Positions 60,052 to 64,000 of a DNA stretch of 64,000 bases are shown piece after piece. The notes beneath the pieces are model-generated. The model did no database searches and had not been told where the DNA came from. It worked only from the letters and a program-made list of their open reading frames with translations. Each line of letters starts with the position of its first letter. The first letter of the stretch is position 1. Made by a program: the position numbers and the translations under genes. The DNA comes from Engelhardtia mirabilis (GTDB lineage Bacteria; Planctomycetota; UBA1135; GCA-002686595): assembly GCA_007751255.1 (NCBI GenBank), contig CP036296.1, positions 3,224,001 through 3,288,000 on the forward strand. Direction: 5' to 3'.

Positions 60052-60240
60052 CCTAGCGATCGGCCGTGGGAGGGGCCCGGTGACGCGCTCGGGACTTCGA
60101 AGCGGGTCGTTCAGAGGGCAGGGAAGCTCTGCGCTGTGGACCGCGGAAGGAGCCGAGGGCCGAGTCTCCATTCGCCGCCCTGCCAGGGGAGCAACGGGTC
60201 TGCACGCGCCGGGCCCGGTGGCCAGGCTCCGAAGCCTGGG

Positions 60241-60305
60241 GCCTAGAAGACGGGCCTAGAAGACGGGCCTAGAAGACCGGCCTAGAAGACGGGCCTAGAA
60301 GACGT
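60241..60305 (-). repeat. five 13-bp tandem repeats derived from a gene end
   Basis: The plus-strand unit GCCTAGAAGACGG occurs five times (60241, 60254, 60267, 60280, 60293), with one change in the third copy and a last-base change in the fifth. On the minus strand each unit contains GTCTTCTAG or its near copy, the last codons and stop of the small protein gene at 60295-60453. The repeat therefore iterates the 3' end of that gene. Confidence 0.9.
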
Positions 60306-60453
60306 TGTAGACGAAGGCTCCGCCGTCGTCCTCTTCGCCGCCGCTGCCGGTGGCCACCATCAACGCGGTCAGGCCACCGACCACGAGTAGGAAGGGGACG
60401 ACGATCCAGAGCCAGTTCTCGGCCAAGAAGCCGCGGTCGGTTTCGTTGTTCAT
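60295..60453 (-). CDS. 52-residue membrane protein, DUF5989-like tail (paralogue 1)
   Basis: The ATG at 60453 and TAG at 60295-60297 enclose 52 residues. The N-terminus is MNNETDRGFLAENWLWIVVP. One transmembrane helix (about 13-36) follows, then an acidic GSGGEEDDGG linker and the end AFVYNVF. It shares the RGFLAENWLWIVVPFLLV stretch with paralogue 2 at 60509. The size, single helix and aromatic end match the DUF5989 family, which accompanies carbamoyltransferase and SGNH-hydrolase genes. It is too short for routine gene finding, but the conservation with paralogue 2 (changes mostly at synonymous or conservative positions) argues strongly that it is translated. Confidence 0.82.
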   Translation of the reverse strand: MNNETDRGFLAENWLWIVVPFLLVVGGLTALMVATGSGGEEDDGGAFVYNVF

Positions 60454-60508
60454 CGGAGGATCAGACTTGGTGAGGGGCTCGGGCGTCGGGCACTCGGAGG
60501 CGGCTGCG

Positions 60509-60667
60509 CTAGAAGACCGGGTAGATGAAGGTCGGGTCGGAGCCGTCTCCGCCAGCTTCGCCGAAGGTCATCAGCAGCGCCGCCAGGCCGCCCATCACCA
60601 GCAGAAAGGGGACGACGATCCAGAGCCAGTTCTCGGCCAAGAAGCCGCGCTCGCTCTGGGTACTCAT
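60509..60667 (-). CDS. 52-residue membrane protein, DUF5989-like tail (paralogue 2)
   Basis: ATG 60667 and TAG 60509-60511 enclose exactly 52 residues, the same length as paralogue 1. It reads MSTQSERGFLAENWLWIVVP, continues with a helix FLLVMGGLAALLMTFG, then a polar GEAGGDGSD linker and the end TFIYPVF. Identity with paralogue 1 is highest over the RGFLAENWLWIVVPFLLV block. It starts 91 bases after the stop of the SGNH-hydrolase fusion gene on the same strand, which itself ends APFIYTLF. The three genes therefore form a series of proteins with one helix and an identical kind of C-terminal tail. No Shine-Dalgarno sequence is obvious. Confidence 0.82.
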   Translation of the reverse strand: MSTQSERGFLAENWLWIVVPFLLVMGGLAALLMTFGEAGGDGSDPTFIYPVF

Positions 60668-60757
60668 CGGTGATCTGCTGGCAGGGGAAGGGCGGTGGGG
60701 CCGTTGGCAGCCCCGGGAGGTGCGGGCTCCGATCGGAGCCCGCGCCGTTCTTGCGAC

Positions 60758-62344
60758 CTAGAACAGAGTGTAGATGAAGGGCGCCACGAGCGGGGAGCTG
60801 GCTGCAACCACCAGCAGAGACCCGATCGACAGCAGCACGACCACCAGGGGCATCAAGTACCAGTGCCCACGACGGATGAAAGTCGTGATCAGCTCGGTGA
60901 TGGTCGCGATGCGGTTGCCGAGCTTGTACGCAACGAATCCCAGCACGACGATCCCGAAGGCAGGGATGACCCAGTGGCTGATCGCGGGGGGAGCGGCCTT
61001 GGTCAGCTTGGTCACGCCGATGAAGACCGAGAAGACCAGGGCCAGCATGCCGGCGACCTTGATCGGCGGCTGCCACTTCGGCTCGTCCCGATAGGTGCCG
61101 TAGTAGAGGATCGTCAGGACGACGAAGAGCGCCAGGTAGAGCTTCACGAAGAAGGGGATTCCCTCGACGTGGGCGTGGAGCGGAGGCAGGGGCGAGCCCT
61201 CGTTGGCGGCCGGCAGGCCCAGCTCGTCGGCTCGCAGCTCGAGCTCGGAGTGCAGGAAGCCTGCGAAGGCGCCGTTGCCCAGGGGGTTGAAGTGCCAGTC
61301 GGTGCGGAAGTAGATCGGATCACCGGCCGCGCGCGCGGCGGCCAGGGCCGGGCGGGCGTCGACCGTCTCGAGGCCGGCCTTCGTCGCCAGCTCGAGGAAG
61401 GTGTCGACGCCGCGGTCGCCGTCCCAGTCGAGGCCGGTCAGGCCACGACCTTGCGGCTTGGGCAACTCGTACCGCTCACGCCAGCCATCCTCGTAGAGGG
61501 TCGCGGGCGGAATGGGAGCCACCAGGACCTTGGCCCCGATCTTGTCTGCGGCGCGCTTCAGACCGAGCAGCGCTCCGAGGCTGTGGGCGCGCACGGTCGT
61601 CATGAATTCCGGCTCCGGATCGAGCAGGGGAGCGAGCTCCTTCTCGATCGCCTTGGCGCTGCCGGCCGGAGTGAACCCGTGGGCCGCGAAGCCGGCGCGA
61701 TCGACCTTGCCCATCCACTTGGTCAGCGCCCAGGACTGATGCCAGGGCTTGGCCGATCTATCTTCGAGGCTGCGCTCCTCGCGCTTGCCATCCGCCCCGT
61801 AGCGGGGCTTCTCGAGGGGACCGTTGCCTGTCTGGTAGACCGGCTGGCTGTTCCAGTAGAGGTCGTTCTCGTAGGGCAGCAGCAGCACCAGGTCGGGCTC
61901 GAACTCGGCCCCGTGGGCCTCGAGCCAGGCGGCCTCCTGGGCCGTGTCCCAGGCTTCGGTGCCCACGTTGACCACCTGGACCATGCGGCCGTCGGCGCGC
62001 ATCAGATCCTCGAGTTGATCGACGAAGAGGTCCTCGCGTTCGACCGAGAAGCCGTAGGTGAAGGAGTCCCCGAGGGCCAGGATCCGGTACACGCCCTCGG
62101 GCTTGGCCGGAGTCGCCATCGGATCGTCGCGCAGTCCGAGCTCGTTCAACTCGAAGTGGGCGCGCAGCTCCGGCGTCTTCTTGGTCTGGGTGAAACCCGG
62201 CTTCTTGGACCAGCCGGTCGCCCCGTCGAAGACCAGGGGGCTGACGGTTGGGCCCTTGCCGAGGACCCGTAGGCCGACCTCGAGGACGATGAGGCCGAGG
62301 GCGAGGCTGACGAGGATGGAGAGGAAGACGTTGAGTGCGCGCAT
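60758..62344 (-). CDS. SGNH-hydrolase protein fused to membrane and DUF5989-like C-terminus
   Basis: The product is 528 residues from ATG 62344. A signal-anchor helix is at 5-27 (VFLSILVSLALGLIVLEVGL). The SGNH/GDSL domain has its nucleophile Ser94 in RILALGDSFTYGFS, the Asn-containing block YENDLYWNS near 158, and the catalytic Asp349/His351 in TDWHFNPLGN. After residue 395 come three or four hydrophobic helices and a final segment, ITTFIRRGHWYLMPLVVVLL to APFIYTLF, which corresponds to a whole DUF5989 protein. In other bacteria the SGNH hydrolase and DUF5989 are usually separate genes next to a carbamoyltransferase. The enzyme may acylate or deacylate an extracytoplasmic glycan. It lies 60 bases after the carbamoyltransferase gene. 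Confidence 0.85.
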   Translation of the reverse strand: MRALNVFLSILVSLALGLIVLEVGLRVLGKGPTVSPLVFDGATGWSKKPGFTQTKKTPELRAHFELNELGLRDDPMATPAKPEGVYRILALGDSFTYGFSVEREDLFVDQLEDLMRADGRMVQVVNVGTEAWDTAQEAAWLEAHGAEFEPDLVLLLPYENDLYWNSQPVYQTGNGPLEKPRYGADGKREERSLEDRSAKPWHQSWALTKWMGKVDRAGFAAHGFTPAGSAKAIEKELAPLLDPEPEFMTTVRAHSLGALLGLKRAADKIGAKVLVAPIPPATLYEDGWRERYELPKPQGRGLTGLDWDGDRGVDTFLELATKAGLETVDARPALAAARAAGDPIYFRTDWHFNPLGNGAFAGFLHSELELRADELGLPAANEGSPLPPLHAHVEGIPFFVKLYLALFVVLTILYYGTYRDEPKWQPPIKVAGMLALVFSVFIGVTKLTKAAPPAISHWVIPAFGIVVLGFVAYKLGNRIATITELITTFIRRGHWYLMPLVVVLLSIGSLLVVAASSPLVAPFIYTLF

Positions 62345-62404: not shown

Positions 62405-64000
62405 TCAGCTGACCATCTCGGTCACCGAGTCGCCCTCGTGGCGCAGGGTGAACTTGGTGTCGGCGATCTTCTTCTTGGCGCTCTCCTCGACGACGAAATT
62501 GTTCATCAGGAGCAGGTCCATGCCCGACAGGCTGAACGTGTTGAAGGCGTGGCTGGGGTGCTCGACGATCGGCTCGCCCTTCAGGTTGAAGGACGTGTTC
62601 ATGATCACCGGCACGTCGGTCAGCTCGCCGAAGCGCTCGATCAGTCGGTGGTAGGCCGGGTTGGTCTCCTTGTAGACCGTCTGCAGCCGACCCGAGCCGT
62701 CCTCGTGGGTGATCGCCGGGAGCACGTCGCGCTTCTCCTCGCGCACCGGGGCGACGTACAGCATGAAGCGCCCCGGCCACCAGTCGGCGGCCTCGGGGAA
62801 GTCGAAGAACTCGTTGGCGCGCTCTTCCAGAACCGATGGCGCGAAGGGCCGGAAGGCCTCGCGGAACTTGATCTTGGCGTTGAGCTTCTCCTTCATCTCC
62901 TGCTTGCGCGGATCGGCGATGATCGAGCGCGAGCCGAGGGCCCGGGGGCCCCATTCGAAGCGCCCGCGGTACCAACCGCAGACCATGCCGTCGGCCAGGG
63001 CCTGGGCCGCGAACTGGAAGAACTCCTCGTCGTCCTCGTAGTAGGTGTACGGGATGTCGTACTTCTCGAGGAAGGCGCGGATCTCGTCGTCGGAGTACTC
63101 GCTGCCCAGGTAGGCGTGGGTCAGACCCGGTCCGCGGGGCTGGTCGAGCAGGTGGTTGTAGGCCCAGTAGGCCGCGCCGACCGAGCCGCCGTCGTCACCC
63201 GGAGCCGGGTGGATGTAGACGTTCTCGAAGGGGCCCTGGCGCAGGATCTTGTAGTTGGCGACCGAGTTGAGGGCCACGCCGCCGGCCAGGCAGAGGTTCT
63301 TCATCCCGGTCTCCTTGTGGAGCCAGGTGGCCATCTTCAGCAGGATCTCCTCGGTCACCTTCTGGATCGAGGCGGCCATGTCGCAGTAGTAGGGATCGAG
63401 CGACTGGTCCTGCAGCTTCGGATCGCGCGCCGGCTTTCCGAAGTGCTGACCGAAGGCCTCCGCCAGCGTCTGGTCACGCGAGTAGTGGTAGGCGAAGTAC
63501 TTCATGTCGTGCCAGATGCTGCCGTCCTCGCCGACTTCCAGCAGCTCGTAGATCTCTTTGCAGTACTTCGGCTGGCCATAGGGGTGCATCCCCATCAGCT
63601 TGTATTCGCCCTCGTTGATCTCGAAGCCGCAGTAGGCGGTGAAGGCCGAGTACAACAGGCCCAGGGAGTGCGGGAAGCGCAGCTCCTTGATGATCTCGAT
63701 CTTGTTGCCACGGCCGACGCCGTAGGTCGCCGTGCTCCACTCGCCGGCGCCGTCGACGGTCAGGATCGCGGAGTCCTCGAACGGCGAGGTGAAGAAGCTC
63801 GACGCCGCGTGGCTCATGTGGTGGTCGGCGAAGAGCAGCTTCGAGCCGGGCACGCCCATCTCCTTCTGCATCAACGACTTGATCCAGAGCTTGTCTGTGA
63901 CCCAGCGCTGCATCGACTCGCGGAACACCGCCGACGAGCGCGGGAACGTCGCCATCGCCGTGAGCAGCATGCGCTCGAACTTCACGAACGGCTTCTCGTA
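62405..64000 (-). CDS. NodU/TobZ-family carbamoyltransferase, N-terminus beyond window edge
   Basis: The frame is open from the right edge to the stop at 62405, with 531 visible residues; typical proteins are about 580-620, so roughly 60-80 N-terminal residues are missing. O-carbamoyltransferases make carbamoyl-AMP from carbamoyl phosphate and ATP and transfer the carbamoyl group to a hydroxyl. The metal-binding HHMSHAASSFF and the following TVDGAGEWSTATYG belong to the N-terminal Kae1-like domain. LAGGVALNSVANYKI is the second Kae1-like signature. The C-terminal YrdC-like part has FEWGPRALGSRSIIADPR and MNTSFNLKGEPIVEHP. All key motifs are intact. The likely substrate is a sugar of the surface polysaccharide. 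Confidence 0.92.
   Translation of the reverse strand, partial: YEKPFVKFERMLLTAMATFPRSSAVFRESMQRWVTDKLWIKSLMQKEMGVPGSKLLFADHHMSHAASSFFTSPFEDSAILTVDGAGEWSTATYGVGRGNKIEIIKELRFPHSLGLLYSAFTAYCGFEINEGEYKLMGMHPYGQPKYCKEIYELLEVGEDGSIWHDMKYFAYHYSRDQTLAEAFGQHFGKPARDPKLQDQSLDPYYCDMAASIQKVTEEILLKMATWLHKETGMKNLCLAGGVALNSVANYKILRQGPFENVYIHPAPGDDGGSVGAAYWAYNHLLDQPRGPGLTHAYLGSEYSDDEIRAFLEKYDIPYTYYEDDEEFFQFAAQALADGMVCGWYRGRFEWGPRALGSRSIIADPRKQEMKEKLNAKIKFREAFRPFAPSVLEERANEFFDFPEAADWWPGRFMLYVAPVREEKRDVLPAITHEDGSGRLQTVYKETNPAYHRLIERFGELTDVPVIMNTSFNLKGEPIVEHPSHAFNTFSLSGMDLLLMNNFVVEESAKKKIADTKFTLRHEGDSVTEMVS

Follow-up and report, generated by a model that had tools for sequence, protein, structure and literature searches.

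Near the end of the 64,000-nucleotide stretch of Engelhardtia mirabilis DNA analysed here (contig CP036296.1, positions 3,224,001 to 3,288,000; the window), a carbamoyltransferase (CT) gene is followed by genes coding for an SGNH/GDSL fusion protein and two 52-residue membrane proteins, the last three of which share an aromatic C-terminal tail related to that of DUF5989 (Pfam PF19451). The comparisons presented below suggest, with confidence and doubt about evenly balanced, that a module of four parts, widely distributed and represented here by one copy, moves carbamoyl groups onto a substrate outside the cytoplasmic membrane, by way of a relay comprising the CT, an SxtJ-family protein, a tyrosine-bearing tail and an SGNH enzyme. 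Much more certain than the relay itself is that the four parts work together as one functional unit. The relay reading draws on the co-occurrence, synteny and natural fusions of the parts, on the identity of the tail motif and the invariance of its tyrosine, and on a predicted membrane topology.

Organisation of the locus

The genes are transcribed from the minus strand in the order CT (62405..64000), fusion (60758..62344), first 52-residue gene (60509..60667) and second 52-residue gene (60295..60453). The CT, of the NodU/TobZ/NovN type, is cut by the window end; its 5' end lies outside the window, with the open frame extending up to approximately window position 64435 in the map of the wider locus (L038). 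Both Pfam domains are present (Carbam_trans_C, 1.1e-67; Carbam_trans_N, 1.2e-60) and its solved relatives include NovN, GdmN and TobZ, similarities by which it is judged a genuine carbamoyltransferase. A short SxtJ-like gene (L038:10440-10748) precedes the CT just outside the window; it is detected with an iterated SxtJ profile (E 1e-14), but Pfam gave no match at E 0.01.

The 528-residue fusion comprises a signal-anchor helix, an SGNH/GDSL domain (residues about 86-378; 61211..62089), three membrane helices (residues 398-475; 60920..61153) and a DUF5989 unit (residues 481-528; 60761..60904) ending in APFIYTLF. The DUF5989 unit scores 44.3 bits against PF19451 (E 1.9e-11), above the cut-off of 27, while the SGNH part matches the Pfam families GDSL (4.9e-8) and ALGX (9.6e-8). 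The first 52-residue protein has one membrane helix and ends in TFIYPVF, and the second, which is 58% identical to it, ends in AFVYNVF. The three minus-strand frames and the SGNH-DUF5989 fusion recognised in the initial annotation are thus genuine features of the locus. A 13-bp unit repeated 5.1 times (60239..60304; 96% matches) begins inside the final codons of the second 52-residue gene, and on the minus strand each unit respells GTC TTC TAG (V-F-stop) in a shifting frame.

The tail motif and its tyrosine

The window encodes the sequence F-x-Y-x-x-F followed by TAG at three places, namely the ends of the fusion (FIYTLF and stop, 60758..60778) and of both 52-residue genes, and no match appeared in 100 dinucleotide shuffles of the window (expected 0.00); the count remains three when all three stop codons are allowed. 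Related genomes, sampled as 32 regions (L038-L069; 482,902 bases), contain 47 matches to the motif plus stop, all of them ends of such tail genes, the shuffles pertaining to the window only. Tyr525 of the fusion is invariant in 26/26 fusions. The DUF5989 superfamily supplied 224 distinct tails (142 stand-alone, 63 from window-family or neighbour regions, mostly small genes, and 19 from fusions), and a tyrosine occurs in the last seven residues of every one and exactly fourth from the end in 205, an invariance partly built in for the named loci described below, which were found by a scan using the pattern APFIYTLF. Only tails whose profile match extended into the final three residues were counted, which left out longer ends such as those of L047 and L076. 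The phenylalanines are less fixed, with 195 of the tails containing one two residues before the tyrosine and 170 a terminal one. In a Pfam-based survey of DUF5989 in the phylum the same tyrosine stands and the other positions vary.

A tail of this form is known from DltX, which was reportedly first described by Schultz et al. in 2023. PMC12148441 (JBC 2025) describes FXYXXF as a six-residue acyl shuttle in DltX and in the C-termini of MBOAT proteins such as PatA, which ends in FIYANF in Neisseria, and states that the shuttle tyrosine accepts the acyl group and transfers it to the serine of an SGNH partner. All three window tails show this pattern at the C-terminus, directly before the stop. 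The seven MBOATs encoded in the E. mirabilis genome, which provide a same-genome control for a shuttle tail, all end in [FY]IYF[QR]F.

The charges flanking the tail helix are more positive on the N-terminal side in 109 of the 142 stand-alone DUF5989 proteins (equal in 29, reversed in four), in 52 of the 63 tails from window-family or neighbour regions (equal in five, reversed in six) and in 14 of the 19 fusions (equal in four, reversed in one). Together with the signal anchor and the helix count of the fusion model, this bias predicts that the tail lies outside the membrane.

Partner genes of DUF5989 across genomes

A contig scan covering 159 relatives yielded at least 592 stretches, of which the best 80 form the set of named loci. 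Among these best 80, DUF5989 is present in 79, CT in 73, SxtJ in 72 and SGNH, which was partly selected by the search, in 74. All four parts occur together in 67 of the 80, in varying gene order and under 19 phylum-level labels, one of which is an unclassified bacterium. An MBOAT occurs in only one of the 80 (L265), as confirmed with a clean MBOAT profile that recovered the same MBOAT regions as an earlier mixed one and no others. Natural fusions also connect the parts: CT and SxtJ are joined in single open frames in L166 and L252, CT is joined to an SGNH domain via one hydrophobic stretch in L257, and the SGNH-DUF5989 fusion occurs in the window and its relatives. The SxtJ proteins of the relatives belong to PF19588 in 37/45 rows. 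The SxtJ model contains helices at residues 12-36, 40-59 and 61-105 (pLDDT 91.7), and a sequence-profile search gave a weak match to antiporter subunit G (E 2.6e-4).

The association is also evident within the phylum of the window. In 80 DUF5989 regions, some of them resting on matches below the Pfam cut-off, CT is found within 6 kb in 56, SxtJ in 50, SGNH in 25 and MBOAT in four (L138, L180, L189 and L195). Some of the 24 regions lacking CT end at contig borders and others are true orphans (e.g. L131 and L158), and four genomes with a CT-less DUF5989 region (G078, G185, G065 and G119) have a CT with SxtJ elsewhere. Among 149 genomes of the phylum, CT is encoded in 68/68 with DUF5989 and in 26/81 without it (p 4.6e-21; here and below, Fisher tests are on plain genome counts that ignore kinship and genome size). 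On plasmids of Paludisphaera and Aquisphaera, CT, SxtJ and DUF5989 adjoin in exopolysaccharide/exosortase surroundings, and on a Methylosinus plasmid they adjoin together with an SGNH gene. In Sinorhizobium meliloti 1021 the module is located near 484 kb on pSymB (L115), and a pSymB record of this species shows the gene order unnamed protein, DUF5989, CT; the 'hypothetical protein' beside DUF5989 was used as an SxtJ seed by assumption. In Methylosinus sp. C49 (L118, 3923-5682), an AMP-binding protein and an 80-residue protein, recalling DltA and DltC, are encoded upstream of SGNH-SxtJ-DUF5989-CT.

A CT tree was constructed with 66 rows (45 of 123 linked CTs, four SxtJ-only and 17 'free'). Sixteen of the 17 'free' CTs fall in one clade (99/99), apart from the CTs located beside DUF5989 or SxtJ. 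The 17th (L072), which like L071 has a very long branch, is labelled 'free' only through the profile threshold, as a short DUF5989-like protein ending in FLYSMF is encoded directly behind it. In 20 CT regions chosen away from DUF5989, neither DUF5989 nor MBOAT was found in the fetched stretch and SxtJ was present in four. The link to the carbamoyltransferase drawn in the initial annotation therefore holds, with CT, SxtJ and SGNH as the usual neighbours of DUF5989; nothing was found in support of the membrane polymerase it had named as another possible partner.

The SGNH fusion protein

In the AlphaFold model of the fusion (alignment of 16 sequences; mean pLDDT 83, pTM 0.75), helices span residues 2-27, 398-417, 425-450, 453-475, 478-491 and 495-515, and the tail end is of low confidence (pLDDT under 50 for residues 526-528). 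Counting helices from the signal anchor, both the SGNH domain and the tail are predicted to lie outside the membrane. The catalytic residues of the SGNH/GDSL superfamily in blocks I (G92, D93 and S94), III (N160) and V (H351) are identical in all 26 fusions compared, and an Asp or Glu stands two positions ahead of His351; Ser94, Asn160 and His351 are thereby invariant residues of the domain. Replacement of the block II glycine by serine or asparagine, which PMC12148441 gives as a criterion for PatB/OatA-like SGNH transferases, was not found, G128 being invariant in the same 26 fusions. A sequence-profile comparison connects the domain with AlgJ and AlgX, which belong to alginate acetylation, and the nearest fold to the model is the hydrolase CgnD (VIA-align).

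The three middle helices of the fusion are homologous to the same part of a free three-helix-DUF5989 protein (family f47; hhalign probability 98.1, E 1.1e-13), in which these helices and DUF5989 form one protein without an SGNH domain. A correspondence of the three helices to SxtJ was rejected, with no homology detected (hhalign probability 3.4 and 1.6). In the fusion family (L200-L211 and the window family), the SxtJ-like protein is shortened, the aligned rows lacking its first two helices, and the fusion has three extra helices.

The 52-residue proteins

Against PF19451 the two 52-residue proteins score 13.5 and 12.3 bits, under the cut-off of 27. Nevertheless, a profile of 47 such small proteins aligns with one built from 112 DUF5989 proteins, most of them not members of the window's family, with a hhalign probability of 99.0 (E 2.7e-18), and of 98.0 (E 2.7e-13) when the last eight residues are removed; the DUF5989 profile in turn finds 47/47 small proteins. 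The set was drawn from 53 tblastn matches, with five rows (L070 and L074-L077) excluded beforehand and L047 dropped from the remaining 48, as its frame continues 15 residues past the FIY motif. Despite the sub-threshold Pfam scores, the small proteins are on this profile evidence homologues of DUF5989, and the resemblance noticed in the initial annotation extends to all three tails. Matches of the small proteins to Pfam ECM10 (E 0.01-0.016) were below the cut-off and were rejected as chance.

The short genes, which the initial annotation had considered easily missed, are real and are kept in related genomes, with a match in 52/61 genomes (its own and 60 relatives from 60 genera) at a loose threshold of E<=1. 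The 27 fusion-bearing regions picked by means of the small gene itself contain one copy (11 regions), two (15) or three (one), with the small gene in L060 about 3 kb away. Sixteen fusions were found without using the small gene, some in genomes already among the 27 regions; within 2 kb of ten of these there are one to four small genes, and none lies that near the other six, one of which is at a contig end. For the window pair dN/dS amounts to 0.29/0.38 = 0.78, which alone does not exclude the value of one that the initial annotation had regarded as a sign against these genes, but pN is below pS in 17/17 tandem pairs tested. Selection at the protein level thus becomes apparent only when the pairs are taken together, the window pair by itself leaving it uncertain. 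In tandem small genes (L039-L066), one protein often ends in Phe and its partner otherwise or one to two residues shorter, with F-x-Y kept. The E. mirabilis genome also encodes another small tail protein (L073, 9670-11472; a 53-residue frame ending in ESPFTYQV) directly before an SGNH-TPR protein, and no CT match was found in the fetched 19 kb around it.

A proposed carbamoyl relay and its alternatives

In the proposed relay, the CT would activate carbamoyl phosphate with ATP in the cytosol, SxtJ would keep the CT at the membrane, and the carbamoyl group would be loaded onto the tyrosine of the C-terminal F-x-Y-x-x-F tail. The loaded tail would swing to the SGNH domain, whose serine would take the carbamoyl group and pass it to an acceptor, most likely an exported glycan. 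Such a scheme would resemble DltX/MBOAT/SGNH acyl transfer, the role of the MBOAT being taken by the CT together with SxtJ. In the window family, the fusion of a tail to the SGNH enzyme and the frequent presence of one to four free tail proteins in series could provide several shuttles per enzyme. We infer carbamoyl-tyrosine and carbamoyl-serine as intermediates, as well as the glycan acceptor and the way across the membrane. Serine hydrolases are known to react with aryl carbamates and become carbamoylated, so that carbamoyl-tyrosine would be a chemically sensible donor. The fullest form of the proposal, to which somewhat less than an even chance is given, is an MBOAT-independent machine in which the DUF5989 tail tyrosine would carry the carbamoyl group across the inner membrane to an SGNH transferase, DUF5989 being the DltX of the carbamoyl pathway and SxtJ with CT the loading complex, and by which exported glycans or other molecules would be carbamoylated outside the cell.

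The initial annotation had interpreted the tails as docking elements. Under such an explanation their role would be limited to building a membrane complex by attachment to one shared site on CT, SxtJ or the SGNH enzyme, and the CT would modify its acceptor in the cytosol before export, as might be expected from the joint presence of the four parts in most of the named loci and from the solubility of the solved relatives of the CT, NovN, GdmN and TobZ. The shared tail and the CT link stand, but a mere docking tag is less likely than thought, because the tyrosine is kept in 224/224 tails while the two phenylalanines vary, and because the motif is a known covalent acyl-carrier motif that, here as in the acyl-shuttle systems, occurs with an SGNH enzyme. 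An aromatic docking motif should tolerate phenylalanine in place of tyrosine, a substitution seen in none of the 224 tails, and a chemical carrier should not; the invariance therefore favours a carrier, leaving docking alone a rather unlikely explanation. Less probable still is that the SGNH part is a decarbamoylase, with the tails merely anchoring or regulating it. This function was proposed for the GDSL protein SxtL in PMC2679770, and the retained block II glycine and the nearest fold, that of a hydrolase, agree with it. Such an enzyme would, however, be futile if packaged, and even fused, with the enzyme making its substrate, and it would leave the invariant tyrosine unexplained.

Ordinary O-acylation, in which an MBOAT encoded elsewhere loads the tails with acetyl and the CT is a bystander of the same clusters, is considered about as improbable as the decarbamoylase. 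The seven MBOATs of the E. mirabilis genome, the association of MBOAT with DUF5989 (56/68 genomes with DUF5989 against 31/81 without; p 5e-8) and the four phylum regions with an MBOAT nearby speak for it. Those seven MBOATs already have their own tail, however, and none lies within 280 kb of the locus. Moreover, at E 1e-6 no MBOAT was matched in 12/68 genomes with DUF5989, and a CT is present in all 68; four of the 12 are at least 99% complete (G084, on one contig, 99%; G192, 100%; G108 and G197, 99%), and another, G035, a member of the window family, carries an SGNH-DUF5989 fusion. Loading by MBOAT was rejected as a general explanation on account of the 280 kb without one and the 12 MBOAT-free genomes. 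That the two 52-residue genes are decaying, functionless duplicates of the DUF5989 end seems very improbable: the dN/dS of the window pair and the six fusions without a nearby small gene, one at a contig end, would fit decay, but ten of the 16 fusions have such genes, 47/48 small proteins keep the tyrosine in the last seven residues and pN is below pS in every tandem pair.

Two kinds of locus combine MBOATs with DUF5989-like frames. In L189 and L195 (also L194 and L197-L199), small DUF5989-like proteins have acidic tails (e.g. SPFEYDLF) with no CT nearby, and the opposite strand of L189 and L195 encodes an SGNH protein close by, together with an MBOAT that has its own tail. In L180 (1525-2885), an MBOAT frame without the usual tail (ending in FAALFGAG) lies beside a 54-residue frame on the other strand, which ends in EPFLYAVF and weakly matches DUF5989 (E 4e-4).

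If correct, the carbamoyl relay would give DUF5989 and SxtJ a function and would show that the tyrosine shuttle, known from MBOAT acylation, also serves carbamoylation, where another enzyme does the loading. As the full module occurs in about 18 phylum-level groups, a fresh look at many carbamoyltransferase-containing glycan and natural-product clusters may be warranted. The open PMC literature returned nothing on DUF5989 or the 'SxtJ family', and nothing joining a carbamoyltransferase with MBOAT and SGNH proteins or with acyl-tyrosine; matches for DltX and carbamoyl were judged unrelated from their listing.

Comparison with known systems

The DUF5989 end of the fusion and the stand-alone neighbours are members of PF19451, with the small proteins of the window under its cut-off, and the Pfam descriptions shown for PF19451 and PF19588 give no biochemical function. 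Like TobZ, GdmN and NovN, the window CT has both Pfam domains and shows strong similarity to the solved enzymes, while the NodU model matches it below its own cut-off; compared with this type as a whole, the CTs linked to DUF5989 or SxtJ stand apart from the 'free' CTs on the tree. PF19588 is named after SxtJ, and, judged by names and sizes, the saxitoxin cluster encodes a matching set of four parts, SxtI-SxtJ-SxtK-SxtL: the table in PMC2679770 lists the CT (1839 bp), SxtJ (405 bp) and SxtK (165 bp), the latter two as unknown, and the GDSL-lipase-like SxtL. Unlike the acceptor proposed for the present module, the product of that cluster is a small alkaloid.

The module also shares with DltX-DltB-DltD of teichoic acid D-alanylation and PatA-PatB of peptidoglycan O-acetylation the C-terminal F-x-Y-x-x-F after a membrane helix, predicted to lie outside, the occurrence of the tail as a free microprotein (as in DltX) or in fused form, and an SGNH partner. 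It differs from these MBOAT-SGNH systems in that the constant partner is a carbamoyltransferase with SxtJ rather than an MBOAT, that the tail is fused to the SGNH enzyme, and that several free tails occur in series. A variant of the tyrosine shuttle tied to carbamoyl transfer is the best-supported reading, and its chances of being correct are put at about even.

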